A DNA stretch of 43,558 bases from Tautonia marina (GTDB lineage Bacteria; Planctomycetota; Planctomycetia; Isosphaerales; Isosphaeraceae): contig NZ_WEZF01000034.1 in the NCBI RefSeq assembly GCF_009177065.1, positions 1-43,558 on the forward strand, written 5' to 3'. The translations under genes were made by a program, and so were the position numbers. Of this stretch, positions 1 through 43,558 are shown one piece after another (within the stretch, counting starts at the first letter, position 1; each line of letters starts with the position of its first letter). The notes beneath the pieces are model-generated. The model was not told where the DNA came from. It saw only the letters and a program-made list of their open reading frames with translations, and did no database searches.

Positions 1-1873
1 CCCTCAGGGCGTCCCGCTCGCGGACATGGGCGCAGACCCAGAGCGTTGACCGATCCTGGATCTCGAACAGCGGCCCCGGGCGGAGCGACTGGCCGGGTTC
101 GGAGGGGCGGACAACCTGGCCGGGGACGACGTCGAAGTGTTCGAGCTGGCCGTCGGCCGGGGCACGGATCGGGATCGTCATTGCGAGCGACGCCGCCCGG
201 CCTTGCCGGTCGAGTCCGCTCGCTTCCAGCTCGGCGAGGACCTCCTTGCCGAGCCCGAGCGACAGGAGCTTGGCCCGGATCTCGCCGATCGTCTGGTCCA
301 TTACCTCCAGGTCCGTTTCGACGCGCCACCGATCAACACGCGAGGCGGCCTGACGCTCGGAGAGGCGCCGGGTCCGCTCGGCCGCTTCGCTGGCCCATTG
401 GTGCCGGGCCCTGGTCCGCAGCAGATCGAGTTGCAGGTTGTGCAGCGGCAGGCTCTCGACCTCAGCGAGCACCTGGCCCTTTTCCACTCGATCGCCCGGG
501 TGGACGAGGATCCGCGTGATGCGTCCCTCCACCTGCGTGGCGGCAGAGTGCCTCCGCCCCACGGGCAACTCGACGTCTCCCAGGGCCACGACCCTCGACC
601 CGGATGCCGCATCGTCGGCCTTGGCTCGGTTGCCCGGACGCAACGACACCGGGCGGACGCCCCCCGGATTCGCCCGATCGCTTCCAGCCGAAGTCGCGGG
701 GAGGAGTGAGGTCAGCAGGCCGGTCCCCGTGACCACGACCCGATCGCCCGGGAAGAGGCCGTCGAGCACCTCGACCCGATCGCCGGACCGGGCCCCGAGG
801 GTGACGGCACGGCGCTCGAAGCGGCCCGCCGCACGTTCGAGGAAGACGTGCGAGGAGTCGCCGGACCCCGCGATCGCCGCGACGGGGCAGACGATCGCCT
901 GCTCCGCGAGGCCCACCCGGATCTCCAGGAGGCCGGACATGCCGGGCTTGAGCCGATGCTCCGGGTTCTCGACATGGGCGATGACCGTCAACGCCCGGGT
1001 GGCAGACTCGACCGTCAGGTGCGTATGCTCGATGCGCCCGGAGAAGGTCGCGCCTGGCATCGCCGTGAACGTGGCCGTGGCCGGCTGGTCAACCCGGACA
1101 TCCGCCAGGTCAGCCTCCAGCACCTCTCCCGCGACATCGACCTCGGACAGATCGACCACATGGAACAAGTGCTCATCCGTGGCGACCACCCGGCCCGCGT
1201 GGACATCGGCGTGCACGATCTCGCCTCGGATCGGACTCCGGATCGGTAGGAAGCGGATCGGTTGTCCGGTCTCCCGGACCTCTTCGAGGTCTTCCTCCGA
1301 AATTTCCAGGGCCAACAGCTTCCGGATGGCGACCTCGACCCCGGCGGCGGCCTCCTGGGCGTCCCGACGTGCTTCCAGGATCTCGGCCAGGGTGATCGCA
1401 TTGCTCTGCCCGAGTTCCTCCCGCTGGGCGAGCAACCGGTCGGCGAGCCTCTGCTCGGCGATCGCCCTCAACCATTCCCGCTGGAGGGTCTCCAGTTCCA
1501 GCCCCTCGATCAGCGCCAAGGTCTGGCCGGGCTCGACGTGATCGCCGGGCCGCGCGAGCACCCGATCGATCCGGCCGGGGATCAGCGTCGTGATTAGCGC
1601 CTGCTGACGCCAGGGGAGCTGCACCTGGGCCTGGGCGCGGACCACCCTGGCAAGGTCGCCGAGGGTGACCTTGGCCGTCGCCACGCCGATCGCCTGGCGA
1701 GCGGGCTCGGAGAGCAGCAGTTGATTTCCCTGGACCGTCGCCCCCTTCGACGGGAGCGGGGCGTGTCCATCGTGGGAGAGTCCCGGCCTCGCGGCGGTCA
1801 GGCTGCCGATGACGGCCATCCAGCACGCGAGGCGGGCAACCTGCCCGCTCCGGAAGTTCCGTGATCGGTTCAC
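1..1873 (-). CDS. Tandem (double) HlyD/CusB-type efflux adaptor, 5' part; continues across the circular junction to 43326
   Basis: Periplasmic membrane-fusion protein that would link the inner-membrane RND pump encoded just downstream (40041-43322) to an outer-membrane channel. The start is GTG at 1873, with GGAGG seven bases upstream, and GTGA overlaps the stop of the lipoprotein gene by 4 bp. An N-terminal hydrophobic stretch acts as signal or anchor. A first full adaptor module follows: lipoyl half motifs (IDRVLARPGDHVEPGQTL), a helical hairpin, a second lipoyl half (IRGEIVHADVHAGRVV) and a beta-barrel, ending near VVVTGTGLL. After a linker, a second module begins (GRITRILVHPGDRVEKGQ, then ADGQLEHFDVVPGQVV). 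The frame is open through position 1 and matches the frame at 43557-43558, giving about 701 residues in total (624 codons here). Normal adaptors have 350-500 residues, so this is a covalent dimer. Substrate is unknown; a metal cation is inferred from the pump. Confidence 0.9.
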   Translation of the reverse strand, partial: MNRSRNFRSGQVARLACWMAVIGSLTAARPGLSHDGHAPLPSKGATVQGNQLLLSEPARQAIGVATAKVTLGDLARVVRAQAQVQLPWRQQALITTLIPGRIDRVLARPGDHVEPGQTLALIEGLELETLQREWLRAIAEQRLADRLLAQREELGQSNAITLAEILEARRDAQEAAAGVEVAIRKLLALEISEEDLEEVRETGQPIRFLPIRSPIRGEIVHADVHAGRVVATDEHLFHVVDLSEVDVAGEVLEADLADVRVDQPATATFTAMPGATFSGRIEHTHLTVESATRALTVIAHVENPEHRLKPGMSGLLEIRVGLAEQAIVCPVAAIAGSGDSSHVFLERAAGRFERRAVTLGARSGDRVEVLDGLFPGDRVVVTGTGLLTSLLPATSAGSDRANPGGVRPVSLRPGNRAKADDAASGSRVVALGDVELPVGRRHSAATQVEGRITRILVHPGDRVEKGQVLAEVESLPLHNLQLDLLRTRARHQWASEAAERTRRLSERQAASRVDRWRVETDLEVMDQTIGEIRAKLLSLGLGKEVLAELEASGLDRQGRAASLAMTIPIRAPADGQLEHFDVVPGQVVRPSEPGQSLRPGPLFEIQDRSTLWVCAHVRERDALR

Positions 1874-2427
1874 GAGGTTGCCTCCGGCTGGTCGGGACTC
1901 AGTGCGACGGGAATGTCCTGGAGCGATCCGATGGCCTGATCAATGGACCCGGAGACAGCGCCGTAGTCCGGATCCTGTCCGGCGTCGATCCGCGAGTGGA
2001 CCTGGTTGAACAACTCTCGGATTTCCTGTGCGGTGGTGTTCACCGCCTCCCAGTGCTCCTTCGGGACGCCGCTGTCCCGTGCGATCTCTGGCAGCCAGTT
2101 CAGGACGATGTCGAGTTCATCGAGGGCGCGATGGGCCTTGGTCGGCCGACCGGCTGCGATCTCGTCGCGGATCGTGTCACGGTAGCCCTCGATCCGCGTG
2201 AGCGCTTCCGGGTAATCTTCGGGACGCGCGACGTCCGCCTCGGTGATCGGCACGTCATCCGGGTCCGTCGCCGTCTCGGCGGCGGACCCGGGCGTCGACC
2301 CGGTAGGCGGGGCGGTCGCCTCGGGAGTCGATCCTCCGCAACCGACCAGGCCGGACAGGGATGCGAACACGAATGCCAAGCGGACGGTTGGCATCACAGC
2401 GAAACGACGGGGCATCAGGTCGCGCAT
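1870..2427 (-). CDS. Small helical lipoprotein of the efflux operon
   Basis: Predicted 185-residue secreted lipoprotein. The ATG at 2427 is preceded by GGAG at nine bases; an upstream in-frame extension has no ribosome site. The N-terminus (MRDLMPRRFAVMPTVRLAF) runs into a hydrophobic segment ending in a lipobox, LVGC, so Cys would be lipidated. A Pro/Thr/Ser/Ala-rich linker follows, then an acidic, mostly helical domain with periodic charged residues (about residues 55-175). I recognise no enzyme motif. The stop codon overlaps the adaptor start by 4 bp, so the two are translationally coupled. Position suggests an accessory periplasmic or outer-membrane partner of the metal efflux system. No outer-membrane factor is encoded nearby, but this protein is too small to be one. 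Confidence 0.8.
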   Translation of the reverse strand: MRDLMPRRFAVMPTVRLAFVFASLSGLVGCGGSTPEATAPPTGSTPGSAAETATDPDDVPITEADVARPEDYPEALTRIEGYRDTIRDEIAAGRPTKAHRALDELDIVLNWLPEIARDSGVPKEHWEAVNTTAQEIRELFNQVHSRIDAGQDPDYGAVSGSIDQAIGSLQDIPVALSPDQPEATS

Positions 2428-2527
2428 GAGCGCATTCTCCGTGGGGGACACGAGGGTGAGGTCGGACAATGAACGAACGCATTGGCTGGGGGCGTGGGGG
2501 GACGCCCGAGGAACAGGCTCCGCGAGG

Positions 2528-2561
2528 GTGGCGCGCATAGGCGCCACGCCGGTTCAACCGG
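2528..2561. promoter_or_regulatory. Two adjacent inverted repeats upstream of the lipoprotein gene
   Basis: Arms GTGGCGC/GCGCCAC enclose the six-base loop GCATAG (2528-2547), directly followed by the odd-centred perfect palindrome CCGGTT-C-AACCGG (2549-2561). They lie in the 161-bp gap between the His-rich gene (ends 2589) and the lipoprotein gene (starts 2427). The first could terminate or attenuate the upstream transcript; the second looks like a dimeric repressor operator. No regulator is encoded nearby. Function is inferred from position and symmetry. Confidence 0.4.
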
Positions 2562-2588: not shown

Positions 2589-3233
2589 TCAGGTCAATTG
2601 CACGCCGGAGCGTTCCTGGCGCGCCCGATCGCACAGGGGAGGGGACGAGCCGCGATCGGGCTGCGCGCAAAGTAGGCGCGAGGTGAGCGCAAGGGATTCC
2701 GCCGCGGACCACGCAGGGGGGCCGTGGAGGGATTGGAGGAGGGACAGGGTCTTTGACCAACTGGAGGCGTCCGACGGTCCCTTGGGAAGGACGAACAGAG
2801 GGGTCGGAAAGCGATCGACCTCCGCGTCCTCGCCACCGTCGCAGGACGGACGAGAGTGCTCGCCCGCAAGCCCTCCGAACCACGTCAGATGCGTGTGCCA
2901 GTCGGCATCCTTTAACGACGGGGCGAACCGACCCTTGTCGGACCCGACTGCGTCATCATGATGATGGCCGGATGGCTGGTGCTCGTGATGATGCCCGTCG
3001 TGATGGCGATGCGCCTCTGCATCGCCGCGAAGCTCAGCCCAACCATGCCGGTGAGGATCGCCGCCATCCGCATGCACATGGCGCAGCTCGTACCGGGGCA
3101 GGCCGCCGAGGACAACTAATCCGGCAAACAGAACATGCAGAGCGTGATGACACAATCGGATCACGATAAGTTCCAATGCGGCTCCGAGCGAAAGTCCGCG
3201 AACTTCAATCCAATCGTACCATGCCAAGCTCAC
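2589..3233 (-). CDS. Histidine-rich putative metal-binding protein
   Basis: Predicted 214-residue protein with a GTG start at 3233. The start is uncertain because the only purine-rich stretch lies almost against it. Residues about 12-48 are hydrophobic (ALELIVIRLCHHALHVLFAG) and could be a signal anchor. They are followed by a dense His/Asp/Gly segment at about 52-100, with clusters such as HVHADGGDPHRH, HRHHDGHHHEH and HHHDD. The rest is Ser/Pro/Arg-rich without recognised motifs. Such His-rich stretches bind Zn, Ni, Co or Cu. It is first in line ahead of the lipoprotein, double adaptor and HME-RND pump on the same strand, so a role as a periplasmic metal buffer or chaperone is inferred. The C-terminal half may not be conserved. 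Confidence 0.65.
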   Translation of the reverse strand: MSLAWYDWIEVRGLSLGAALELIVIRLCHHALHVLFAGLVVLGGLPRYELRHVHADGGDPHRHGWAELRGDAEAHRHHDGHHHEHQPSGHHHDDAVGSDKGRFAPSLKDADWHTHLTWFGGLAGEHSRPSCDGGEDAEVDRFPTPLFVLPKGPSDASSWSKTLSLLQSLHGPPAWSAAESLALTSRLLCAQPDRGSSPPLCDRARQERSGVQLT

Positions 3234-19507: not shown

Positions 19508-20449
19508 TCAGGCAGCCTCAGAATTCGAGTTCATGGATGCTTCGATCTGGGTGATGATCTCCTTGAGGGCATCGAGGATGGAATCGGGGTCGGTCCCCTT
19601 GCGGTGCTCGACCGTGACCTTGTAGCCGGTCGAGGTCCGATAGGTCCGAGTCGTGACCTTGCGGGGTTTGGCCTTGCCGGAGCGGCGAGGCCCCTGCCCT
19701 TCGGCCTTGCGACGGCGGACGACCTCGGCCGTCTCGGCGCGGTTGAGTTTGGCGGAGACGACCTCGGCAGCCAGGTGGGCCTGCTCGGCCGGGTCGTCGA
19801 CCTTGCTGATCTCGTAAGCGATCGACGGGGCGAGCCGGCCGTCATCGACCGAGGCTTGCACACCGTCCGGCAGGTCGAGCAAGGCGAGGGCCCGGGAGAC
19901 CGACGCGCCGGTCAGGTGCAGGGCCTCGGCCAGTCGGGAGGCGGTCCAGCCGTTGGCGTCCATCAGGGCCTTGAACGCCCGGGCCTGCTCGACGGGCTTG
20001 AGATCCTCTCGGATGCAATTCTCGATGAGCTGCATTTCGAGGATCTGCTCCTTGGTGCGTTCCCCTTCGATGATGACGGCGGCCACCTTGGCCCGGCCGG
20101 CGTGCTTGATGGCTCGCCAGCGGCGCTCGCCGGCAACGACGATGTAACGCCCCCGGTCGGGGGCCCAGCGAACGGCGATCGGCTGGAGCTGGCCGTGGGA
20201 TTCGATGCTGGCGGCCAGGCGAGCGATGGCGTCGGGGTCGAACTCGTGGCGAGGCTGGTCGGGGTCGGGTTCGATCCGATCGACCTCGATTTCGACGGCC
20301 GTCCGGAGGCGGTTGGTCCCCTGATGCTGGCTCGGCCCGGCGGGACGATCGGACGCGGGAGCGGCCCCCTGCCCCGATCGTCGGCCGGCCCCCATCGACT
20401 CGGCGAGGTTCGACCCGAACCGGTTGAGCAGTTCGTCTCGCTTGCTCAT
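19508..20449 (-). CDS. parB: ParB family partition protein
   Basis: Predicted 313-residue centromere-binding CTPase of the plasmid partition system. ATG at 20449 overlaps the parA stop as ATGA and follows GAGGAGAGG. A flexible N-terminus (about 1-48) precedes the ParB/Srx domain: VDRIEPDPDQPRHEF (box I), IASIESHGQLQPIAVR-type segment, YIVVAGERRWRA (box II, GERR), then MQLIENCIREDLKPVEQA. The HTH lies at about 165-190 (ASRLAEALHLTGASVSRALAL). A basic linker (RRSGKAKPRKVTTRTYRT) and a dimerisation region with an acidic helix end the protein. It would load on the GTGTAAGA palindromes found in and upstream of parA. ParB and ParA are coupled and read toward the terminator at 19463. Confidence 0.96.
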   Translation of the reverse strand: MSKRDELLNRFGSNLAESMGAGRRSGQGAAPASDRPAGPSQHQGTNRLRTAVEIEVDRIEPDPDQPRHEFDPDAIARLAASIESHGQLQPIAVRWAPDRGRYIVVAGERRWRAIKHAGRAKVAAVIIEGERTKEQILEMQLIENCIREDLKPVEQARAFKALMDANGWTASRLAEALHLTGASVSRALALLDLPDGVQASVDDGRLAPSIAYEISKVDDPAEQAHLAAEVVSAKLNRAETAEVVRRRKAEGQGPRRSGKAKPRKVTTRTYRTSTGYKVTVEHRKGTDPDSILDALKEIITQIEASMNSNSEAA

Positions 20450-21285
20450 GCCGCCTCTCCTCGGGCCTCGCCCGGATCGGCATTTTGCACGGTGTAAGAC
20501 ATGCGGAGCTTCAGCTCCTCGGCCAGCGCCTTGAGGGCCTTGGCCGAGGCGCCGCGGGGCTTGCTGTACGGAACGGGTTTGCGCTGGGCGATCGCTTCCT
20601 TGAAGTCGATGGCGTGGGGGATGGTCGTCTCCAGCACGTCGGAGCCGTACAGCTCGCGGAGCATCGATTCGTAGGCGCGGTGGATGGCCGTTCGGGCGCT
20701 GAACATGGTGATGAGGAAGCCGAGGAGGTTGAGCGTCGGATTGACCTCGGTGCGCATCGCGTCGATGCAGTCGAGGATGGCGGCCACGCCTTGCGAGCCG
20801 AAGTCTTCGGCCTGGAGGGGGACGACGATGTGATCGGAGGCGGCGAGGGAGGCCCAGGCGCAAAGATGGAGGTTCGGGGGGCAGTCGATGAGGATCCAGT
20901 CGAAGCGGTCGGCGGCCTCGCTCACGAACTCGGCCAGGGCGCGCTGCTGGTCGTCGGGGGCGTCCCAGGGCTCGGGGACGTTGTGGCGGGTCAGGTGGAC
21001 GGAGCCGGGGACGATCGCCAGCCGCTCGAAGGCGGTCGGCACGATCAGATCCTCGGCGGCCGGGATGATGCCGTCACCGAAGAGGCCGGCGATCGTCTCG
21101 TGGGCCGGTCGGGCCCGCATGGCGTCGGGGCCGAAGAACCCCTGGGTCAGGCTGGCCTGGGGGTCCATGTCGAGGCAGAGCACCCGGGCGCCGTCCCTGG
21201 CGAGCGTGCCGCCGAGGTGGTAGACGGAGGAGGTCTTGCCGACCCCCCCTTTCTGGTTCAAGAAACAGATCGTCGCCGCGGGCAT
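20446..21285 (-). CDS. parA: ParA family partition ATPase
   Basis: Predicted 279-residue deviant Walker-type ATPase that drives plasmid segregation on the nucleoid. ATG at 21285 is preceded by GAGGAGG. It begins directly with the deviant Walker A box (FLNQKGGVGKTSS, with the signature Lys before GG), then Walker A' (LCLDMDPQASLTQG) and Walker B (WILIDCPP). The short N-terminus without an HTH places it with type Ib/Soj-like ParA, so autoregulation would rely on ParB or another factor. The 3' end contains one candidate parS half-palindrome (20482-20500). Overlaps parB by 4 bp; 1.28 kb of repeat-rich non-coding DNA precedes it. Confidence 0.97.
   Translation of the reverse strand: MPAATICFLNQKGGVGKTSSVYHLGGTLARDGARVLCLDMDPQASLTQGFFGPDAMRARPAHETIAGLFGDGIIPAAEDLIVPTAFERLAIVPGSVHLTRHNVPEPWDAPDDQQRALAEFVSEAADRFDWILIDCPPNLHLCAWASLAASDHIVVPLQAEDFGSQGVAAILDCIDAMRTEVNPTLNLLGFLITMFSARTAIHRAYESMLRELYGSDVLETTIPHAIDFKEAIAQRKPVPYSKPRGASAKALKALAEELKLRMSYTVQNADPGEARGEAA
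20482..20500. repeat. Candidate parS site 1, inside the 3' end of parA
   Basis: Right half GTGTAAGAC is identical to the intergenic copies and the left half (TTTTGCAC) is degenerate; the centre is at 20491. It is the only copy found within coding sequence. Confidence 0.5.
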
Positions 21286-21423
21286 GGTCCGCCTCCTCGT
21301 CCCTGGCTCGGTCGCCCTTGATTTCCGCCGAGACATACGCCCCGGAAATTCGACCGATCCCCGCTTCAAGCGATCGGCGTTTTGGGGTGGCGAGTTCAGC
21401 GAAACAGGGTCCCGATCGGATCG

Positions 21424-21440
21424 GTTTACACCGTGTAAGA
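21424..21440. repeat. Candidate parS site 2
   Basis: GTTTACAC-C-GTGTAAGA, odd-centred inverted repeat centred at 21432, one mismatch per eight-base arm. Lies 139 bp upstream of the parA start. Confidence 0.6.
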
Positions 21441-21516
21441 TGCCGACGCCGGGGGATCCGAGGCGATCGGCGTTCTCACGCATCTCGGCCCGCGGAATGC
21501 GACACCGGGGGGCACG

Positions 21517-21533
21517 GTTGACGCCGTGTAAGA
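21517..21533. repeat. Candidate parS site 3
   Basis: GTTGACGC-C-GTGTAAGA centred at 21525; the right arm is conserved and the left arm has three mismatches to perfect symmetry. Confidence 0.55.
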
Positions 21534-21562
21534 TCCCGAAGCTGGGGGTTGGATGAGCAGGG

Positions 21563-21583
21563 CGTCTTACACGGTGTAAGACG
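21563..21583. repeat. Candidate parS site 4 (perfect palindrome)
   Basis: Arms CGTCTTACAC and GTGTAAGACG flank a single central G at 21573: a perfect 21-bp odd-centred palindrome. It does not match the chromosomal parS consensus. Confidence 0.7.
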
Positions 21584-21663
21584 ACGAGGGAGACGACCGC
21601 GATCGGCCCCCGCTCGGGCGGTCGCGGATCGCCGAGACGGGCGACGATCCTCGGCGTCTCGAT

Positions 21664-21686
21664 GCGTCTTACACGGTGTAAGACGC
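21664..21686. repeat. Candidate parS site 5 (perfect palindrome)
   Basis: Arms GCGTCTTACAC and GTGTAAGACGC around a central G at 21675: a perfect 23-bp palindrome and the longest copy. It shares the ten-base core arms of site 4, 102 bp away. Confidence 0.7.
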
Positions 21687-21724
21687 CGAGGGCGGAGCGA
21701 TCGGGCAGGGGCGGGACTCCCTCC

Positions 21725-22281
21725 GGTGCGCCGATCGGTGCGCCCTCCGGTGCGCCGGGGGAGATCACGGATTCGAGGGGAGATGGAGTGGAGCGAGGCC
21801 GGGTTCCGGGGTTCGTTTCGGGAATCGGGGGTCGTTCGGAAATGGGTTCGTTTCGTACGGGAGAAGGCCGAACCCTGGGCAGGTCGGGCGAGGACGAGGC
21901 GGCAGGAATTCGGGAACGGTGCGCGGCCTGGTGCGTCGCCGGGTGCGCCTGGGCGAGCGAGATTCGATCGCCGTAAAACTTTATCTGGATAATGATTGCG
22001 GATTGTGGACCCGGTTTGTTTCGGAAATGTCGGGAAAACGAGTTCATGGCTCCGTTTCGTGCCTCGAACGACCGGAGCGAGGCCTTCCGGCACCGGGGGC
22101 GGGGGAGCGGTTCGGGGCTCGGTGCGCGGTTCGGTGCGCCTGGGTGCGCCTGGGTGCGCGGGGGAATCGAGGAAGGGAGGGGGCCAGGCGGTCGGGTTCG
22201 TTTCGGAAAACCGACGCGTGGCGGAAATGGGTTTGTTTCGTCAAGGAAGAGGGTGCTGCGGTGCGCGCGTGACGGTGCGCA
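21725..22281. repeat. Phased GGTGCGCC clusters alternating with paired GTTTCG repeats
   Basis: GGTGCGCC-like octamers start at 21725, 21737, 21749; 21918, 21930, 21942; 22121, 22133, 22143, 22153; and 22260, 22274, mostly 12 or 10 bp apart. After each of the first three clusters comes a pair of GGGTTCGTTTCG-like 12-mers 35-36 bp apart (21809/21844, 22012/22048, 22194/22229). This gives about three degenerate 190-200 bp units. The region 21286-22564 has no convincing gene: open frames there lack ribosome sites and consist of repeat-encoded residues. From 22282 to 22564 I see only one more isolated GGTGCGCA (22350). Confidence 0.7.
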
Positions 22282-22564
22282 GCGATCGACACGGAAGGGG
22301 TGAGGACGCGGGGAACGCTCCAGGGGAGAGGGCGGCGGGAGTGGCCTCGGGTGCGCATCGGCCGGGGCTCGATCGGGGAGGAGGAAAACGGAGGGGCCGG
22401 GCCGTTGGGGCGCGGTCGGGGGTCTCCATAATCATCGTTCGATCGGGCAGGGTCAGTCACACAAAATGGGGCCGGTCGGCGATCGGGGGAGCGGGTGCGG
22501 ATCGCTCGACCGATCGACCGAAGGGGCAGGGGAGGGACGGCCGGAGAGGGGCAATCGTGGAGGC

Positions 22565-23989
22565 TCAGTCGGCCGATCCCGAGTCGCCGAAGAGCAGGGC
22601 GCGGATGTGGGCCTCGCGGACGGTCTTGAGGTAGCTGCGCTTCAAGGGGGAGCGGAGGACGCCGGGCTCGGGGGGCATGGCCTCGAGCGCCTGGGCGTCG
22701 AGGGCGACCTGCGCGTCGGGGGAGAGGCGGGACCAGTAGGCGTCGATCGCCTCGGCTTCGAGCTTGCGGCGGCGCTTCTCGTCGGCGGCAAGGCGGCGGG
22801 CGTCGTCGAGGGTCTGGTGGGCCTGGAGGGCGGCCGATTGCTGGGCATCGCGGGCGGCCTTCGGGAGGTAGTCCTTCGGGGGGGCGTAGTCGTCTCGGAT
22901 GGCGCGGACGAGCCAGGCGCCGGCTTCCTTGACGTGGCCGGGCTTGTGCTCCTGGAGCCACTGCAGGAGGTCGAGCTTGGATTCGATCCGGTCGGCGGGC
23001 AGGTCGCGGACGAGGTCGGCGGCGACCCGGGGGGTGACCCCTCGATCGACGAGCCGGAGGGCGAGCGGGTCATCGGGAGCCTCGGCCGGGTCGGGCAGGG
23101 GGGGCTCCGGGGCGATCGGGGAGAAGGTCGGCTGCTGCCGGGCGATCTTGATGATCCAGTCGCGGCCTTGCTTGGTGTAACGCTCCTCGCGGGGCAGGGG
23201 GGCGATGAAGCCGGTCTCCTCGAGCTCGGTGAGGGCGGGCTGGAGCTTCTCCTTGATCTTGCCGGCGTTGGAGGCGTAGTTGCGGCTCATGCCGATGTAG
23301 TCGATGGCGAACTCGCGGAGCTCGAACGACCATTCGGGGGAGGTGTAGAAGCGCTTGTCGAGGAAACGGTACATGCGCTTCGAGATGGCGCTGCGGAAGC
23401 CGAAATAGGTGTCGAGGTCGAGCCGCTTCAGGTTGTCGGCCTGGCAGCTCTCGATGAAGGTCTTGTTCCAGACGAAGTAGGAGAAGGGCTGCGGCTGGCT
23501 CCGGCTGGTGGCCTTGTCGTCGATCATGACGGTTTCGATGACGTGGAGCTTGGCCGTGAGGTGCTTCTTGGCGCGGTTGTCCCACCAGGTGTTGTCGTAG
23601 TAGAGGGTGACGCCGGACCAGCGGTTGAGCGACTCGTCGAGGCGGCGATAGTACTTCCCCTCGTCGGGCCAGCGCAGGACCTTGAGCAGCTCGTACCGGG
23701 TGAAGTGGACCTTGGGGTCCTGAAAATCGTTCTTCTTGCGGGTGAGCTGAATCAGGCCGACCAGGACGTCGGCATCGGCGGCTGTGGGAAGGCCGTAGGC
23801 ATCGCTGCCGGAGACGGTGAGGGCTCCGTGCGGATACTCGTAGCGGATCGACTTCTTGCCTTTCAAGCCGATCGGCACACGGTCGGTCAGGAGGACAAGC
23901 GGGAACTCGGCGAAGTTCATCTCGTCTCGCCCGGCCTGAGTGTCAGGAAGGCGTGGCGAGTCGTCGGGAAAGAGCGGCAGGCGAGCCAT
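22565..23989 (-). CDS. repA: Plasmid replication initiator protein (RPA/RepA-like)
   Basis: Predicted 474-residue initiator. ATG at 23989 (MARLPLFPDDSPRLPD) has AAGGA eight bases upstream; a TTG at 24016 is less likely. The N-terminal 270 residues resemble the replication initiator protein A (RPA) family of plasmids: EMNFAEFPLVLLTDR, YEYPHGALTVSGSDAYGLPT, FTRYELLKVLRWPDEGKYYRRL, FIESCQADNLKRLDLDTYF, AISKRMYRFLDKRFY and FAIDYIGMSRNY, a winged-helix pair. A Pro-rich linker and a charged helical C-terminus (about 330-474) follow. It should bind the iterons at 24130-24508 directly upstream and open the AT-rich segment between. Same strand as parA and parB, as in rep-par backbones. Family assignment is from recognised sequence style, not a search. 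Confidence 0.9.
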   Translation of the reverse strand: MARLPLFPDDSPRLPDTQAGRDEMNFAEFPLVLLTDRVPIGLKGKKSIRYEYPHGALTVSGSDAYGLPTAADADVLVGLIQLTRKKNDFQDPKVHFTRYELLKVLRWPDEGKYYRRLDESLNRWSGVTLYYDNTWWDNRAKKHLTAKLHVIETVMIDDKATSRSQPQPFSYFVWNKTFIESCQADNLKRLDLDTYFGFRSAISKRMYRFLDKRFYTSPEWSFELREFAIDYIGMSRNYASNAGKIKEKLQPALTELEETGFIAPLPREERYTKQGRDWIIKIARQQPTFSPIAPEPPLPDPAEAPDDPLALRLVDRGVTPRVAADLVRDLPADRIESKLDLLQWLQEHKPGHVKEAGAWLVRAIRDDYAPPKDYLPKAARDAQQSAALQAHQTLDDARRLAADEKRRRKLEAEAIDAYWSRLSPDAQVALDAQALEAMPPEPGVLRSPLKRSYLKTVREAHIRALLFGDSGSAD

Positions 23990-24029
23990 ACACGTTTCCT
24001 TATCCGAAGACCGCAAAACGAGACACCAC

Positions 24030-30399: not shown

Positions 30400-30460
30400 C
30401 AATTTGCTCGTCGCAATTTTCTGCGTTGCGAGATACCACCGCCGATTCGGTACGACCGTG

Positions 30461-33400
30461 ATGCAAGACGGATCAATGCCGCAGGCCCCTGATCGATGGG
30501 GCGGCGACGAGGGAATACCGTTGGACGGACTGGACCAAGAGATCGAGCACGCGGCGCACGTGTTACCCACGCAGGGACCGATCACGGTCTTTGTTCATCA
30601 TAATCCGCTGCATGCGTTTGAGGAGTTGCCGTTCGACGAGGCCCTGGCTACGGCTTCGGCGCTGTACGGTTGCCATCCCTACCTGCCCGAAGATCACTAC
30701 CGAAGCGAGGTCGATCGGGGGCGGATCGCTCGCGAGGATCTGGCGGAGGTTCTCATCGACGACCTGGGCGAGGATGCCGATGTCCTGATCGGATTCATGG
30801 GCACGCGGTATCACCTACGGCTGGCGATGCTTGAGTACCCGTTGCGCACGGGGACCGACGACGAGCTTCGCTGGTTCATTACCGGAACCGATGCGCTGGA
30901 GCGGTTTCGATCGGAGGCTCCGGTTGATCTCCGCCGTCGGATGATTGATCAGACGAGGCAGTGGGTCTTGCGGGAGCATCAGGCGAGGCGGGCTGATGAT
31001 TCGGCTGGTCACGATGGCGACATCTTGAAGCGTTTGCTGGACCAGTCTCAGGGGGCTCGCATTGATCGGTGGGACGATCGGGCCTGGGAGGCGTTTACGT
31101 TGCGCCTTCTCTGGAGAGTCTGTCACGCCGGAGTGCATGGCGTGAAGCGGCACGGCGATCCCCCGCCGTCGCCGATCCGGCACCGAGACTGGTTGCTCCT
31201 GGCAACCGGCCGAGACACTGATCGCCTGGTTCATGATCTGCTCATCAAACTTTGCTCGGCGTTTCTTGATCAGGGGCTTGCCGCCTGGAGGATGCCCGGC
31301 CGGTCGCTTGGGTTTTTCGGGGCCTTCGTGGAACTTTACCGTGATGCTCGGCCGGTCGAGCCCTGGTTACGGGGACTGCCGGAAGCGCTTCGGGAGATCG
31401 ATCGAACGGGACGATCGGCGACGGCGTCGCTGGAGGAGTCACTTCGGGACCTGGGGGTTGCCGAGTCGGAGCGCGGCCCGTTCCTCTCCGCAACGCTCCT
31501 GGCGCTTCCCGGATGGGCCGGGATGCTGTGGCAGATGGAAACGAATGCCGAGTGGGCGGTCCGGCCCGCGCCTCCTGGAACGCTCCGAGACTTTCTGGCC
31601 GTCCGCCTGATCCTTGAGCGGCTGGCCCTGAGCCATGTGGCTCGGGAGGAGCTGGCCGCGGCTCCGTCGCTGAGCGAGTTGCGGCACGAGCTGCACCATC
31701 GAGTTCCACACCCTCCCCGGGTGAGCGTGGACCAGCGGACTTATCTGGTGTTTCAGCTCGCCCAGGTTCGGGGCTGGAGTCCTCCGGATCTGAACCGCCT
31801 TTCGAAAGCTGAGTGGTCGCAACTTGTCGAGGAGATCGAGGCGTTCGGGAGTCTGGCCCGCCGTCGGGTGTATCATCGCGCATTCGAGCGTCGATATCGG
31901 CATCAAGCACTCGACGCCGTGGTGACGCAGGCTGCCCGAACGGGATCGGGAAGCGACGACACGCGGCGGCCTGAGGTCCAGGTGGTCACCTGCATCGACG
32001 ACCGCGAGGAGTCGTTCCGAAGACACCTCGAAGAAGTGAATCCCCAGGTCGAGACCTTCGGCGCGGCCGGGTTCTTTGGCGTGGCGATGTATTACCGGGG
32101 GGTGGCCGATGCCCACTTTCGCCCGCTCTGTCCGGTGGTGGTCAGACCTCGCCATTACGTCCGGGAGCAGGCAGCTTACTCGCTGACGAGCAGCAGCCGA
32201 CAGCGGGCAGAAACGAGGAGACTGCTGGGGACCGCTCTGAGGCACTGGCACCAGAGCAGCCGGGGCCTGCTCGGAGGAATCGCCACGGCCATGCTCGGCT
32301 CGCTCGCGTCGGTTCCGTTGGTGACGCGTATCCTCGTTCCCAGGCTCACCTCCCGGATCAATCGACAGGCCATCGGGTTTGTGCAGGCTCCCCCGGTGAC
32401 CGAACTCTCGATTCAGCGAGTGGTTGATCCGCCTGGACCGGATGACGATCACCTCGGGTTCTCCGATGAGGAGATGGCCGACATTGTGACTCGGCTGCTT
32501 CAGGACATCGGGCTGACCCAAGGGTTCGCAAAGCTGGTGGTGGTGGTCGGGCATGGGTCGAGCAGCCTGAACAATCCGCACGAGTCGGCCTATCACTGTG
32601 GCGCGTGCAGCGGAGGGCTCGGCGGACCGAATGCCCGTTCCTTCGCCTTGATGGCGAACGATTCCCGGGTCCGGTCCATCCTGAAGGATCGAGGGCTGGT
32701 CATTCCTGAAGGAACGGTGTTTGTCGGGGCCTTTCACAACACCTGTACCGAGGACGTGATCTTTTACGACCTTGATCGGATTCCGTTCTCGCATCGTCGG
32801 GCGTTTGAGCAGTTCCGGAAACAGATCGACCTGACCCGAGAACGGAACGCGCACGAACGCTGCCGACGGTTCGAATCGGCCGATCTCGGACTCTCGTTGC
32901 CCGAGGCGCTCGAACACGTGGAGACCCGAGCCGAGGACCTTTCGCAGGTCCGCCCGGAATACAACCACGCGACCAACGCCCTCTGCTTTGTGGGGCGTCG
33001 CTCCTGGAGCCGAGGGTTGTTTCTCGATCGTCGAGCGTTTCTTGCCTCGTACAATCCGAGGCTTGATGACTCGGAGCATTCGATTCTCTGCCGCATTTTG
33101 CAGGCGGTGATTCCCGTTTGCGCGGGGATCAGCCTGGAATACTACTTCTCGAGGGTTGATCCTGCCGGGTTCGGTTGCGGGTCGAAGCTGCCGCACAACA
33201 TCACCTCGATGCTGGGGGTGATGGAAGGGGCCTTGAGTGACCTTCGCCCCGGTCTTTCGCAACAAATGATCGAGATTCATGAGCCGCTGCGTCTGCTCTT
33301 CGTGGTCGAGACGACGCCGGAAGCGCTGGAGTCGATCATGGATCGGGTCGAGCCGATCGGTCGTCTGGTGCGCAACGCGTGGGTCCAGATGGCGACGATC

Positions 33401-33571
33401 TGTCCGGACGGGCTGACTCTTCACCTTTACCGCGATGGCGGATTTTTCCCCTACACCCCGGAATCGAGTGGGTTCCCTGAGGTTTCGTCGTCGCTCGACT
33501 GGTATCGAGGCCGACGAGACGCGGTGGGGTTTGCCTCGATCGGCTCCCGGGCGGGACGAGGCGACCGATGA
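30461..33571 (+). CDS. dabA: DabA, inorganic carbon accumulation zinc protein (DUF2309)
   Basis: Predicted 1036-residue DabA. With a complex-I-like membrane partner, DabA is known to drive energy-coupled CO2 hydration and bicarbonate accumulation through a beta-carbonic-anhydrase-like zinc site. The expected zinc residues are all present: Cys511 and Asp513 in [11 protein letters not shown], His698 in [15 protein letters not shown] and Cys713 in [10 protein letters not shown]. The His-Cys distance of 15 equals that of the characterised DabA. The N-terminal family motif is [21 protein letters not shown] at 30461 was chosen; 30404 and 30476 are alternatives, and none has a strong ribosome site. 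It is longer than many DabA proteins (about 830). Its last four bases overlap the start of the membrane subunit (ATGA), so the two are coupled. Confidence 0.95.
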
Positions 33572-34956
33572 GCGATTCCCTGCTGTTCCAGGTGTTGGGG
33601 ACGGCCGTTCTGGCCTTGCCGGCGTTGCTGCTGGCGATTTTGGGGATTGCCTTGCTGGTGGACCGGCCCTGGAGCGAATCGGCCATCGCTCGATGGACCG
33701 AGGCGAGTGTGGTGACGGCGCTGGTCGCCGCCGTCGGGGTGCTTGGAATGATGCTGGTCACCGGCGATCGGGAGCTTTCCCTGGAGTTGGGATCGCTGAT
33801 TGCCATTCCGAGCGAGCACTTCCACTTCCGCCTGAAATTTGTGTTCGATCGGCTCTCGGTGCCATTCGTTATCCTGTCGCTGGTTCTGATCGGCACGGTG
33901 GGGGCATTCGCCAATCGGTATCTGCACCGCGAGCCGGGCTACGGTCGGTTCTTCCTGTTTTATGCCGTGTTCTTGCTGGGAATGGTGGTTGCGTCGCTCG
34001 CGGGAACGATTGAAACCTTGTTTCTGGGATGGGAACTGGTGGGGCTGTCGTCGGCGTTGCTGGTGGCATACTTCCACGAACGGGCCGCGCCGGTGCTCAA
34101 TGCGCAGCGGGTCTGGTCGGTGTACCGAATCTCCGATGCCGCGTTTCTGCTCGCCGCGGTGGCGCTGCATCACGTCTCGGGAGCGGGCGATTTCGAGTCA
34201 ATGACTGGTACCGGCCTCTGGCCGGATGCGAAGGCGACGTTGACCTCGACGCAGGCGCTCGGGGTGGGGCTGCTCTTGCTGCTGGCCGCTGCGGGGAAGT
34301 CTGGGCTGATTCCGTTCTCGGGATGGCTACCGAGGGCGATGGAGGGCCCAACCCCTTCAAGCGCAATCTTTTACGGGGCCCTTTCAGTGCACCTGGGGGC
34401 GTTCTTGCTGCTCCGGGTCAGTCCGATTCTGGAACGATCGGCCGTGCTTTGTGGGGTTGTGGTGGTCCTCGGACTGGCGACGGCCGTGTTCGCGGCGATC
34501 ATCGCCCGGGTGCAGTCGGACGTGAAAGGGGCGCTCGCCTTCGCCTCGCTGACCCAGGTCGGAATCATCGTCGCAGAGATCGGGTTGGGTTTGCGGTACA
34601 TTCCCTTGATTCATATCATCGGCCACGCCTGCCTGAGGACCTTGCAGTTGCTTCGGGCCCCCTCGCTGCTGAGGGACTATCACCAGATAGAGAACGCGGT
34701 CGGTCGGCGGCTCGAAAACCACGAGGGATGGTTTGAGGGGCTGCTATCGGGGCCGTTGAAGCTACGCCTGTATCGGCTTGGGTTGGATCGTGGCCAGTTC
34801 GATGCCGTGCTCGATCGTTTCGTCGTCGCTCCGTTCACACGGGTCTTCCGATGGTGTGACGGAATGGAGCGGCGATGGACGGATTTTCTTGCAGGGACGG
34901 GCTCCCGAGAATCGGATCGGGTCCCGGCCTCCTCTCCGATGGTCGAGGAACTGTGA
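33568..34956 (+). CDS. dabB: DabB-like proton-conducting membrane subunit (NuoL/MrpA type)
   Basis: Predicted 462-residue polytopic membrane protein of the complex-I antiporter-like family, the presumed cation-driven partner of DabA. It overlaps dabA by 4 bp. The ion-path residues are intact: Glu156 in [17 protein letters not shown] (helix 5) and Lys244 in [27 protein letters not shown] (helix 7), with the conserved GPTPSSA loop. [17 protein letters not shown] is the usual second-domain start. The C-terminus after about residue 390 is soluble and charged, and the usual final helices of NuoL are absent, so the protein is shorter than full-length relatives. Inner membrane. TGATG couples it to the next gene. 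Proton versus sodium use cannot be decided. Confidence 0.9.
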
Positions 34957-36485: not shown

Positions 36486-36494
36486 GGAAGGTTC

Positions 36495-38414: not shown

Positions 38415-38554
38415 TAGGTCTGAAGGAGAGGAGGCCCGCGTCGAGGGTGGAGTTGGCAGTTCCTGGGCCCCCGAGGCCTGGCTCCCTTGGAACCGGTTGC
38501 CTGTCAGTTGGCCTCGGCTGAAAGTGACCGTACGGCCCGATTGGGGTCCCGACC

Positions 38555-40040: not shown

Positions 40041-43000
40041 TCATGAGTCCTGGTCGTCGAGGTCGGAGAAGACATCGTCATGCGCAGCACCCCGGGTTGA
40101 TGGCCTCCCGAACCGCAGGAACAGGGCGGGAGTGACGACCTGGTCGAGCAGCGTCGAGCTGACGAGGCCGCCGATAACGACGATCGCCAGCGGGTGGAGC
40201 AACTCCTTGCCCGTCTGGCCGGCGCCGAGGGCCAGCGGGATCAGGCCGATGGCTGCTGTGAGGGCCGTCATCAGCACTGGCGCCAGCCGCTCCAGGCTCC
40301 CCCGGATGATCATCTCGGGGCCGAATAGCTCCCCCTCCTCGCGCATCAGGTGCTGGTAGTGTGAGATCATCAGGATGCCGTTGCGGGAGACGATCCCCGT
40401 CAGCGTGATGAAGCCGACCCAGTGGGCGACCGAGAGGGTCACCGCGCCCGTCCAGACGCCCGGCCATCCCCACCAGGGCAGACCGCGAAACGCGTCGATC
40501 CCCGGCCACTCGACGATGAGCAGGGCGATGATCGAACCGACCGCCGCCAGTGGCACGTTGGCCAGGACCTGGAGCGAGGCCCGCCAGGAATCCAGGCCCT
40601 TGCAGAGGACGAGGAAGACCCCGAAGAGCGCCAGCGGGCCGAGCAGGAAGAGCTGGCGGTTGGCCCGACGCTGGGCCTCGAACTGCCCGCCCAGGTCGAC
40701 GAAGTCGCCGGTGGGCAGGGCAGGGGTCACCGATTCGGCGATCGTCCGGCGAATGTCGCTCACGACGCCTTCGAGGTCGCGATCCGCGACGTTGGCCTGG
40801 ACCACGATCCTTCGCAGCACGTTCTCGCGGTTGATTGTGTTCGGGCCGTCGGTCTCGACCACTTCCGCGACGTTGCCGAGGGCCACCCGAGCCCCCGACG
40901 GCGTGCTGACGCGCGTCGAGCGGATCGCCTCCACGTCATTCCGGGCCGACGGGTCGAACCAGACGACCAGGTCGAACGTGCGCTGGCCTTCGAGGACCTG
41001 GGAGACCGTCCTCCCCTGGAAGGCGGTCTCCAGGGCCTCGGCCACCTCCGCGGGAGTCAGGCCGTATCGGGCGGCCGACTCGCGGTCGATCCAGACCCGC
41101 ACCTGGGGCACGCGCACCTGGGGCTCCACCTGGAGGTCGACGACGCCCGGGATCTCCGCCATCTCCAGGGCCAGCTCGTCGGCCGAGTCCCGCAATGTGT
41201 CGAGATTCGGGCCGAAAATCTTCACCGCGACCTGCGCCCGGATGCCCGACATGATGTGGTCGAGCCGATGGGAGATCGGCTGGCCAATGTTGAAGACCAC
41301 GCCGGGCACTTCGGAGAGGACCTCGCGCACCTCGTCGCGGACCTCATCCCTCGGACGACCGACGTGCTCCACCCCGAGGTGGTGCAGGCCGGGGACCGCC
41401 CGCAGGATGCTCGCCGCGAGACCGGGCTTCGGCCGATTGGGCTCGATCAGGTTGACGTCGATCTCGGAGACGTTGACGTTCTCGGCGTGCTCGTCCAGTT
41501 CGGCGCGGCCCGTCCGCCGCGAGACCCCGGTCACCTCGGGGATGGCCAGCAGCGTCTCCTCGACGCGGCGGCCGATGCGGTCCGACTCGGCGAGGCTCGT
41601 GCCCGGCGGGCAGGTCGCGGCGATCGTCAGCGTGCCCTCGTTGAATTCCGGCAGGAACTCGCCGCCCATCCCGGTCAGGGTTGCGAGCGATCCCACGACG
41701 AGCACGAGCACCGCGAGCAAGACCGCCCCCGTGTGGCGGAGCGTGAACCGTAGGACCCGCGTGTCGAGCCACTTCAGCGTACGGAGTAGGATCGGATCGC
41801 CGGGCCGCTCCAGGAAGCGGGCGCCCGGCAGGACGTATGAGGCCAGCGCCGGGGTCACCGTCAGCGAGACCAGCAGCGAGGCGAGTAGCGTCACGAGGTA
41901 GGACAGGGCCAGCGGCGCGAACAGCCGCCCTTCCAGGCCGGGCAGCGCAAACAGCGGCAGGACCACGAGGACGACGACCATCGTCGCGTAGACGATGCTG
42001 CCGCGGATCTCCGATGAGGCGCGGAAGACGACCCGCAGGGCCGGATCGGGCCGCGCTTTCGCCCGGTTCTCCTTGAGGCGGCGGAAGACGTTCTCGACGT
42101 CCACGATCGAGTCATCGACCAGCTCGCCGATCGCCACAGCGATGCCGCCGAGCGTCATCGTGTTGATGGTCAAGCCCAGGTAGTCGAAGACCAGGGCCGT
42201 GATCACCACCGACAGCGGGATGGCCGTGAGCGTCACCACGCTCACCCGGAGGTTCCAGAGGAAGAGGAACAGGACGATCACGACCCAGATCGTGCCGTCA
42301 CGGATGGCCTCGACCACGTTGGCGATCGCCGCGTCGATGAACCGCTGCTGCCGGAAGATCCCAGCGTCGAGGGACACGTCGTCGGGCAGGCTCGCCCGGA
42401 TCGCGTCGAGCGTCGCGTCGATGTCCGCCGTGAGCCGGAGCGTGTCCGCCCCCGGCTGCTTCTGGACCGAGAGGATGACCGCCGCCGCACCATCGATGCT
42501 CCCCTCGCCGCGTTTGACCGGCGGGCCGAAGCGGACGTCGGCGACCTCGCGGACAGTGATCGGCACCGGCTCGCCCGGCCGGACCACCGTCGAGGCGATG
42601 TCGTCGAGCGTCTCCGCACGCCCCACGATCCGAATGACCGCCTCGCGGTCCTTGCCCAGCAGGAACCCGCCTCCGGTCGCCTTGTTCGCGCGTTCGACCG
42701 CCCGGTTCAGCTCGTCGAGCGTTACGTCGTGACGCGCCAGGCGTTCGGGAGAGGTCAGCACCTGGTACTGACGCACCTCGCCCCCCATGACGGTGACTTG
42801 CGCGACCCCCGAGACGGCGAGTAGGCGAGGGCGGATGACCCAGTCGGCCAGCGTCCGCAACTCCATCGCATCGGTCGGCCCGTCGGCCTGGAGCCCAATG
42901 AGCAGGATCTCGCCCATGATCGAGGTGATCGGCGCGAGGACCGGATTGACGTCGTCGGGCAGCCGCGACCGCACGAGCTGGAGCTTCTCACTCACGACCT

Positions 43001-43322
43001 GGCGGGCGCGATAGATGTCCGAGCCCCAGTCGAACTCGACCCAGACGATCGACAGACCGACGGCCGAGGCGGAGCGCACCCGGAGCACGCCGCTGGCGCC
43101 GTTGAGCGAGGACTCGATCGGGAAGGTGACGAGCGTCTCCACCTCCTCGGGCGCCAGGCCGTGGGCCTCGGTCATGACGGTGACCGTCGGGCGGTTCAGG
43201 TCCGGGAACACGTCGATGGGGATCTGCGTGGCCCGGAAGCCGCCGTAGGTGGCCAGGGCCAGGGCGGCGACCAGGACGAACGCCCGGTTCGCGAGCGAGA
43301 AGCGGATCAGGGCGTCGAGCAT
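40041..43322 (-). CDS. HME-RND heavy-metal efflux pump (CusA/CzcA family)
   Basis: Predicted 1093-residue inner-membrane pump exporting metal cations by proton antiport as a trimer. ATG at 43322 lies three bases after the adaptor stop, with a G-rich site about ten bases upstream. RND topology: helix 1 (FVLVAALALATYGG), the first periplasmic loop (PIDVFPDLNRPTVTVMTEA), a block of helices 2-6 and the second loop from about 570. Helix 4 carries the acidic relay GELVDDSIVDVENVFRRL. FLPEFNEGTLTI and GIRAQVAVKIFGPNLD are typical of the HME class. The metal (Cu/Ag, Zn/Co/Cd or Ni) cannot be told reliably; the His-rich first protein of the operon fits Zn, Ni, Co or Cu. It ends only 19 bp from the convergent cyclase gene, with no clear hairpin between. 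Confidence 0.95.
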   Translation of the reverse strand: MLDALIRFSLANRAFVLVAALALATYGGFRATQIPIDVFPDLNRPTVTVMTEAHGLAPEEVETLVTFPIESSLNGASGVLRVRSASAVGLSIVWVEFDWGSDIYRARQVVSEKLQLVRSRLPDDVNPVLAPITSIMGEILLIGLQADGPTDAMELRTLADWVIRPRLLAVSGVAQVTVMGGEVRQYQVLTSPERLARHDVTLDELNRAVERANKATGGGFLLGKDREAVIRIVGRAETLDDIASTVVRPGEPVPITVREVADVRFGPPVKRGEGSIDGAAAVILSVQKQPGADTLRLTADIDATLDAIRASLPDDVSLDAGIFRQQRFIDAAIANVVEAIRDGTIWVVIVLFLFLWNLRVSVVTLTAIPLSVVITALVFDYLGLTINTMTLGGIAVAIGELVDDSIVDVENVFRRLKENRAKARPDPALRVVFRASSEIRGSIVYATMVVVLVVLPLFALPGLEGRLFAPLALSYLVTLLASLLVSLTVTPALASYVLPGARFLERPGDPILLRTLKWLDTRVLRFTLRHTGAVLLAVLVLVVGSLATLTGMGGEFLPEFNEGTLTIAATCPPGTSLAESDRIGRRVEETLLAIPEVTGVSRRTGRAELDEHAENVNVSEIDVNLIEPNRPKPGLAASILRAVPGLHHLGVEHVGRPRDEVRDEVREVLSEVPGVVFNIGQPISHRLDHIMSGIRAQVAVKIFGPNLDTLRDSADELALEMAEIPGVVDLQVEPQVRVPQVRVWIDRESAARYGLTPAEVAEALETAFQGRTVSQVLEGQRTFDLVVWFDPSARNDVEAIRSTRVSTPSGARVALGNVAEVVETDGPNTINRENVLRRIVVQANVADRDLEGVVSDIRRTIAESVTPALPTGDFVDLGGQFEAQRRANRQLFLLGPLALFGVFLVLCKGLDSWRASLQVLANVPLAAVGSIIALLIVEWPGIDAFRGLPWWGWPGVWTGAVTLSVAHWVGFITLTGIVSRNGILMISHYQHLMREEGELFGPEMIIRGSLERLAPVLMTALTAAIGLIPLALGAGQTGKELLHPLAIVVIGGLVSSTLLDQVVTPALFLRFGRPSTRGAAHDDVFSDLDDQDS

Positions 43323-43325
43323 CGC

Positions 43326-43558
43326 TCAGGAATCCCCCCCGGGGCGACCCGCGATTGACGGTGCAGGCGGGAACACGTCGATGACGGCGCGGGCCTGCAT
43401 CCCCTCGAAGAGCCGCCCTTCGGCGTTCTCGACCTCGATCCAGACGGGCATTACGCGGGCCCCCTCCTCGAAGACCGGCGAGACCCGGACGACCGAACCC
43501 GGGACGCTCAGCCCGGGGGCGCCGGGGAAGGTGACCCGGACCGGCTGGCCGGGCCGAA
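43326..43558 (-). CDS. 3' end of the tandem HlyD/CusB-type adaptor (continuation of 1-1873 across the circle)
   Basis: The last 77 codons of the double adaptor (76 residues plus stop). Phase fits exactly: the codon formed by bases 43557, 43558 and 1 reads Val, giving ...ERDALR-V-RPGQPVRV..., the normal sequence of an adaptor beta-barrel. The domain continues VTFPGAPGLSVPGSVVRVSP and ends IAGRPGGDS. The stop at 43326-43328 is three bases before the pump ATG. This is the direct evidence that the molecule is circular and complete. Confidence 0.9.
   Translation of the reverse strand, partial: RPGQPVRVTFPGAPGLSVPGSVVRVSPVFEEGARVMPVWIEVENAEGRLFEGMQARAVIDVFPPAPSIAGRPGGDS

Follow-up and report, generated by a model that had tools for sequence, protein, structure and literature searches.

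The adaptor gene that spans the contig ends of a Tautonia marina replicon encodes two periplasmic adaptor modules in one polypeptide and lies directly upstream of an HME-RND pump gene. The arrangement is conserved, with one covalent tandem adaptor to each pump gene of the CusA/CzcA family: such a pump adjoined the tandem adaptor in 11/11 tandem loci. The gene product is rather likely to be a covalent dimer of periplasmic adaptors serving the adjoining pump, with the two modules taking unequal roles in a six-module ring. The DNA analyzed here (the window) was the whole contig NZ_WEZF01000034.1 of T. marina (G000:C34), 43,558 bp in length.

Reading frame, contig ends and neighboring genes

The minus-strand frame of the adaptor opens at position 1873 and, 624 codons later, leaves the contig at position 1. 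Another 77 codons follow in frame at 43558-43326(-), so that the joined ORF encodes 701 aa and terminates at a stop codon at 43328-43326; the ATG of the pump gene follows at 43322 after a gap of 3 nt. The features of the window were as follows.

1..1873, minus strand: tandem adaptor, 5′ part, residues 1-624, with a signal-like N-terminus, HDGH, module 1, linker and most of module 2 (open frame; HlyD_D23, HlyD_3, Biotin_lipoyl_2; TIGR01730)
1..592, minus strand: module 2, left-end part, about residues 428-624, with lipoyl halves, hairpin and barrel start (AlphaFold, Biotin_lipoyl_2, module-1 profile)
593..712, minus strand: linker, about residues 388-427 (pLDDT below 50 at 394-427)
713..1723, minus strand: module 1, about residues 51-387, with MPD, barrel, lipoyl halves, alpha-hairpin and the HADVHAGRVVATDEH signature (ZneB and CusB matches, AlphaFold, profile)
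1870..2547, minus strand: 225-aa protein directly upstream of the adaptor (phmmer matches in pump loci)
2589..3233, minus strand: 214-aa histidine-rich frame upstream of the adaptor (sequence)
20446..22047, minus strand: ParA-type partition ATPase of a plasmid (PF13614, PF01656)
22565..24016, minus strand: plasmid replication initiator RepA (PF10134, E=3.7e-18)
40041..43322, minus strand: HME-RND pump, 1093 aa, with the TM4-type motif AIGELVDDSIVDVEN (TIGR00914, CusA match, motif)
43326..43558, minus strand: tandem adaptor, 3′ part, residues 625-701, with the rest of the module 2 beta-barrel and the stop codon (in-frame join)

Continuation of the adaptor frame across the contig ends and the presence of genes for RepA and ParA make it very probable that the contig represents a circular plasmid of 43.6 kb, linearized within the adaptor gene. 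The length of 701 residues given in the preliminary description was borne out as a single open frame once position 1 was joined to 43558; the interval 1-1873 given there holds the left part of the gene and omits 43326-43558. A stop codon or frameshift between the modules, which had been set as the observation that would speak against a fusion, was looked for in the joined frame and none was present.

Alignment through the join ran without a gap against 4 of 10 relatives (L030, L031, L032 and L082), and each of the remaining six carried its own short insert a few residues beyond the join position. No identical stretch of at least 10 bases was shared by the two contig ends, and with inserts so close by in 6/10 relatives a short in-frame loss at the join is conceivable; both points would suit an assembly artefact, with a chance joining of the ends and no real fusion. 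However, frame and homology both run through the join, the stop codon followed by the pump start reproduces the operon order of the relatives, and the junction between module 1 and module 2 lies at 401-943 of the window, away from the join, and occurs in 10 other genomes. An artefact is thus extremely improbable.

The RepA and ParA genes lie near each other (20446-24016). Elsewhere in the window, 30404-40021 encodes a DabA inorganic carbon transporter, two Proton_antipo_M proteins, a sulfate-permease-type transporter and a DAC-domain protein. The 225-aa protein had no Pfam or NCBIfam family at E<=0.001 and matched frames in the pump loci L033 (1.2e-9) and L084 (1.6e-6) and, more weakly, in L036, L124 and L116 (phmmer); it is a possible accessory of these pumps. 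The 214-aa histidine-rich frame, likewise free of a Pfam or NCBIfam match, may encode a metal-binding protein.

Domain layout of the two modules

RND periplasmic adaptors (MFP/PAP) are defined by a barrel-sandwich (lipoyl) domain, an alpha-hairpin, a beta-barrel and usually an MPD. The Tautonia protein belongs to this family by its TIGR01730 match (207.1 bits; cut-off 94.9), and its 624-aa part matched PF16576 at 202.6 (cut-off 30). It fell below the cut-offs of the CusB subfamily NF007303 (71.8 vs 390) and the CzcB subfamily TIGR00999 (152.3 vs 319.3). In Pfam, HlyD_D23 and HlyD_3 matched the first half, and residues 446-472 gave a second biotin-lipoyl match (Biotin_lipoyl_2). The best PDB sequence match was ZneB, over residues 56-386 (E=7.4e-30), and CusB matched residues 59-389.

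Across 284 aligned columns the two modules of the Tautonia tandem were 32% identical (E=1.6e-26); in 8/8 tandem proteins tested by BLAST and profile, module 1 aligned to module 2. Against the module-1 profile, module 2 of seven full-length relatives matched from position 42 or 43 (54 in L035) to 378-380, and module 2 of the Tautonia tandem matched positions 63-310 only. The latter has a degenerate MPD segment on the N-terminal side and none on the C-terminal side, while the lipoyl domain, hairpin and barrel are kept.

Structures were predicted with AlphaFold for the Tautonia 624-aa part (mean pLDDT 76.5, pTM 0.44) and for the relative L047 (5 sequences; mean pLDDT 80.6, pTM 0.38); because these pTM values are low, the arrangement of the modules relative to each other is not readable from the models. 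The L047 model contained MPD strands, barrel, lipoyl halves and hairpin each twice, amounting to two complete adaptor layouts, with predicted hairpin helices at 116-145/152-179 and 447-478/484-510. Foldseek returned ZneB as its top fold match, and AcrA, CusB and MexA were also matched. The Tautonia model ran from module 1 through a low-confidence stretch (394-427) into the lipoyl halves and hairpin of module 2 (helices 475-506 and 512-538), without the preceding strands seen in L047. Since the profile match is confined to 63-310 and MPD strands are missing, the Tautonia protein is read from sequence and model as a complete module joined to an MPD-less one. For the C-terminal MPD segment the loss is read from the sequence, because the 624-aa model ends at the contig end: even when the final 77 residues are added, module 2 does not extend past the barrel. 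Of the two complete modules originally proposed, the presence of two adaptor modules in one chain therefore stands and the completeness of module 2 does not. By profile coverage both modules keep the MPD in the other tandems, and the MPD-less state has so far been seen in the Tautonia copy only.

The Tautonia linker, with its pLDDT below 50, would suit a chain that is cut after export into two adaptors, in which case the fusion would only set equal amounts. In L047, the one relative modeled, the modules instead abut, and the low-confidence stretch covers just residues 370-376. Cleavage of this kind is improbable, and an uncut covalent dimer remains the preferred reading.

Distribution and descent of the tandem adaptor and its pump

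The phylum was searched with a profile of the module 1-module 2 junction (176 positions; a match was counted over at least 156 of them). The junction was found in at least 11 of 392 sampled Planctomycetota genomes, Tautonia included, spread over eight families; each phylum-wide search scored part of its first-look candidates. The full protein as query gave at least 8/392 genomes at E<=1e-45, and a whole-length profile at least 10/392 at E<=1e-100. The search for other HlyD-HlyD fusions, suggested in the preliminary description, thus returned tandem adaptors beside a pump in all of the junction-bearing genomes counted, and these proteins form a small family of joined adaptors in Planctomycetota. 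A single assembly error as the source of the fusion was ruled out by the same count. No relative was found at E<=1e-40 in 44 other genomes of Tautonia's own family.

Among 72,556 plasmids queried with the junction, four had any match at E<=1e-5 and none covered 80% of it. Plasmid matches that seemed to span both modules, inspected for the top five of one listing and 12 of another, were single adaptors matched twice over about 0.8-1.3 kb of target. Single-protein scans of genome contigs and viral contigs with the 624-aa protein gave no relatives. A further genome-contig scan that included other phyla, made with short exact patterns, gave one match outside Planctomycetota, a single adaptor in Muribaculaceae.

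The adjacent Tautonia pump is an HME-RND protein, scoring 762.9 bits against TIGR00914 (CusA/CzcA; cut-off 701.45) and matching CusA at E=1.3e-137; its substrate is probably a metal ion. The motif of HME1 and HME2 pumps is DFGX3DGAX3VEN in the accessible text of PMC3637150, and the Tautonia pump carries AIGELVDDSIVDVEN in its place. The genome encodes three further HME pumps, which have the DFG...VEN form and are 33-35% identical to the tandem-linked pump. The motif AIGELVDDSIVDVEN, or a close variant, recurs in tandem-linked pumps, but it is no marker of the tandem, since it is also present in most pumps of this branch that have single adaptors.

Pump searches gave matches at E<=1e-220 in 73/372 genomes, and 20 neighborhoods other than those of the tandems were fetched. 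A pump of the same branch stood with a single adaptor gene in 18 of these 20, a figure that is no census, the neighborhoods having been picked among the best-scoring pumps, two of them coming from one genome (G413) and one, L133, having a poor adaptor match. Related plasmid pumps of Magnetospirillum, Hymenobacter and Salinibacter (three among 25 records listed) had one annotated adaptor gene of 381-547 codons next to the pump gene. In a tree of 34 pumps, the 11 tandem-linked pumps grouped as a single clade (97/96), separate from the 18 pumps that stand with one adaptor gene; L133, whose adaptor frame was poorly matched, was treated as single in this tree and was used neither for counting the signature nor in the second module tree.

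The single adaptors of these related pumps, and the loss of the MPD from Tautonia module 2, would fit a situation in which one module serves each pump protomer site and module 2 stays on as a passive relic or as a spacer extending envelope reach, with no fixed 2:1 ratio. Against this, module 2 was open and matched the adaptor profile in 11/11 tandems, in 10 of them at nearly full length, and its GQVV motif was kept in 9/11. We therefore consider a relic or spacer unlikely, and favor a second module that works in the adaptor ring.

In a first module tree (39 modules), the 11 first modules and the 11 second modules each formed a clade, with support of 96/95 for the former and a weaker 58/87 for the latter. 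Three subgroups (the f69 trio, L033 with L036, and L031 with L032) recurred in both module sets and in the pump tree. In a second module tree (48 rows) the clade of first modules held (98/93) and the second modules did not fall on one side of a branch; neither the second modules as one clade (p-AU 0.162) nor first and second modules together as one clade (p-AU 0.108) was rejected. Most simply read, the tandem arose once and then descended together with its pump. The trees would fit either doubling of one adaptor or fusion of two related ones as the source of the modules.

Two outlying loci were excluded from the tandem counts. L117:7827-9866(-) encodes a 680-aa tandem in which both modules are without the alpha-hairpin. 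At L116, two adaptor genes, L116:7523-8659(-) and L116:10105-11298(-), lie by one pump; one product has an MPD and no hairpin, the other has a long hairpin and ends after the barrel, without an MPD. The L116 and L117 pumps paired at 100/99 in the pump tree. This tree suggests a separate origin for the L117 tandem; grouping of its first module with the first modules of the other tandems was not rejected (p-AU 0.08). The two L116 genes were placed with different adaptors in the second module tree. Tentatively, one metal RND pump branch may have moved more than once from six equal adaptors to fixed unequal pairs, namely the tandem that would pair a pump-docking module bearing the His-Asp-His signature described below with a hairpin module, the hairpinless L117 tandem and the L116 gene pair.

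Unequal modules and a proposed adaptor ring

The second lipoyl half of module 1 carries an H-x-D...H signature (HADVHAGRVVATDEH in Tautonia), a putative metal-binding site. The pattern was spotted in the alignment first and counted afterwards: all three residues were present in 9/11 first modules, 1/11 second modules and 0/22 single adaptors. For the first His the counts were 9/11, 2/11 and 1/22, and for the last His 10/11, 1/11 and 0/22. The last His occurred in exactly one module of each tandem (11/11), and no tandem had the full signature in both modules (0/11). L082 (6686-8980(+)) carries the signature in module 2 and lacks it in module 1. In module 1 of L033 Glu replaces the first His, and Tautonia module 2 has the first His and Asp but lacks the last His. 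The proposal that fusion allows the modules to specialize is supported by the loss of the MPD from Tautonia module 2 and by this one-sided signature. The outlying L116 and L117 loci point the same way.

CusB and ZneB, the adaptors of CusCBA and ZneCAB, share their fold and partner pump family with the Tautonia tandem but are single-module proteins, whereas the tandem has two modules in one chain. In the CusBA structure, two CusB copies per CusA protomer are said to take different conformations at their binding sites, and with identical CusB subunits it is hard to tell what each copy does. The engineered tandem AcrA-AcrA reportedly consists of identical modules; it is man-made, and the Tautonia tandem is natural. 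In the accessible text of PMC4446572, the AcrA-AcrA fusion complements AcrA loss and the CusBA crystal has a 2:1 adaptor:pump ratio.

DSY0927 of Desulfitobacterium hafniense is a natural fusion of two adaptors, taken as evidence for adaptor dimers in the parts of PMC4338810 and PMC4446572 that were available. As far as those descriptions go, it is a natural covalent adaptor dimer like the Tautonia tandem, which also has two adaptor modules in one chain. DSY0927, by the same descriptions, works with an ABC-type transporter in a Gram-positive organism and its N-terminal half is of another adaptor type, without the coiled coil, whereas the Tautonia tandem partners an HME-RND pump and its modules are alike. 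The combination of an ABC-type partner with two different adaptor types was accordingly not found in the Tautonia tandem, given its RND partner and the mutual alignment of modules in all eight tandems compared. TriA and TriB of TriABC-OpmH (Pseudomonas aeruginosa) are two non-identical adaptors for one RND pump (PMC4338810, accessible portion); they are encoded by two genes and serve a drug pump, whereas the Tautonia tandem is one gene beside a metal pump. According to the available portions of PMC4158417, PMC3807786 and PMC4446572, EmrA is without an MPD, like Tautonia module 2, and BesA is without a hairpin, like the L117 modules, but both are single-module proteins. No description of a tandem adaptor of an HME-RND pump was found in the literature covered, which was available in part, held few subscription papers and included PMC4446572, PMC4338810, PMC8277102, PMC13328181 and PMC3637150. 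Judged by these sources, fused adaptors are already in print (DSY0927 and fused AcrA, with TriA and TriB related), and the tandem family tied to metal RND pumps appears to be new.

The one-to-one pairing of tandem and pump genes fits the known 2:1 adaptor:pump ratio, and hard-wiring of this ratio by the fusion is plausible. The fusion is not needed for a 2:1 ratio, because a single adaptor gene accompanies pumps of this branch in most of the other neighborhoods fetched. In the mechanism we propose, three tandem chains per pump trimer would make up the usual six-module adaptor ring, and the two modules would be fixed at two non-equivalent, alternating ring positions. Module 1, with its MPD and His-Asp-His residues, would dock on the pump and gate it, acting in metal gating. 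Module 2, which has lost the MPD here and kept hairpin and barrel, would mainly complete the ring and contact the outer-membrane channel. Of the 21 OEP-domain matches in the genome none lies on this contig, and a tripartite assembly would therefore depend on a channel gene located elsewhere. The frame immediately upstream was examined in two relatives, L030 and L036, and in both it matched TolC-type families below the curated cut-offs.

These results place a natural tandem adaptor on what is very probably a plasmid in Planctomycetota. If the proposed mechanism is true, the two adaptor positions per pump protomer would have distinct jobs, one in metal gating and the other in channel contact. 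A natural chain with the two positions as separate, mutable modules would make the role of each position directly testable, and the MPD-less module 2 and the one-sided His-Asp-His signature show where to look for position-specific roles.
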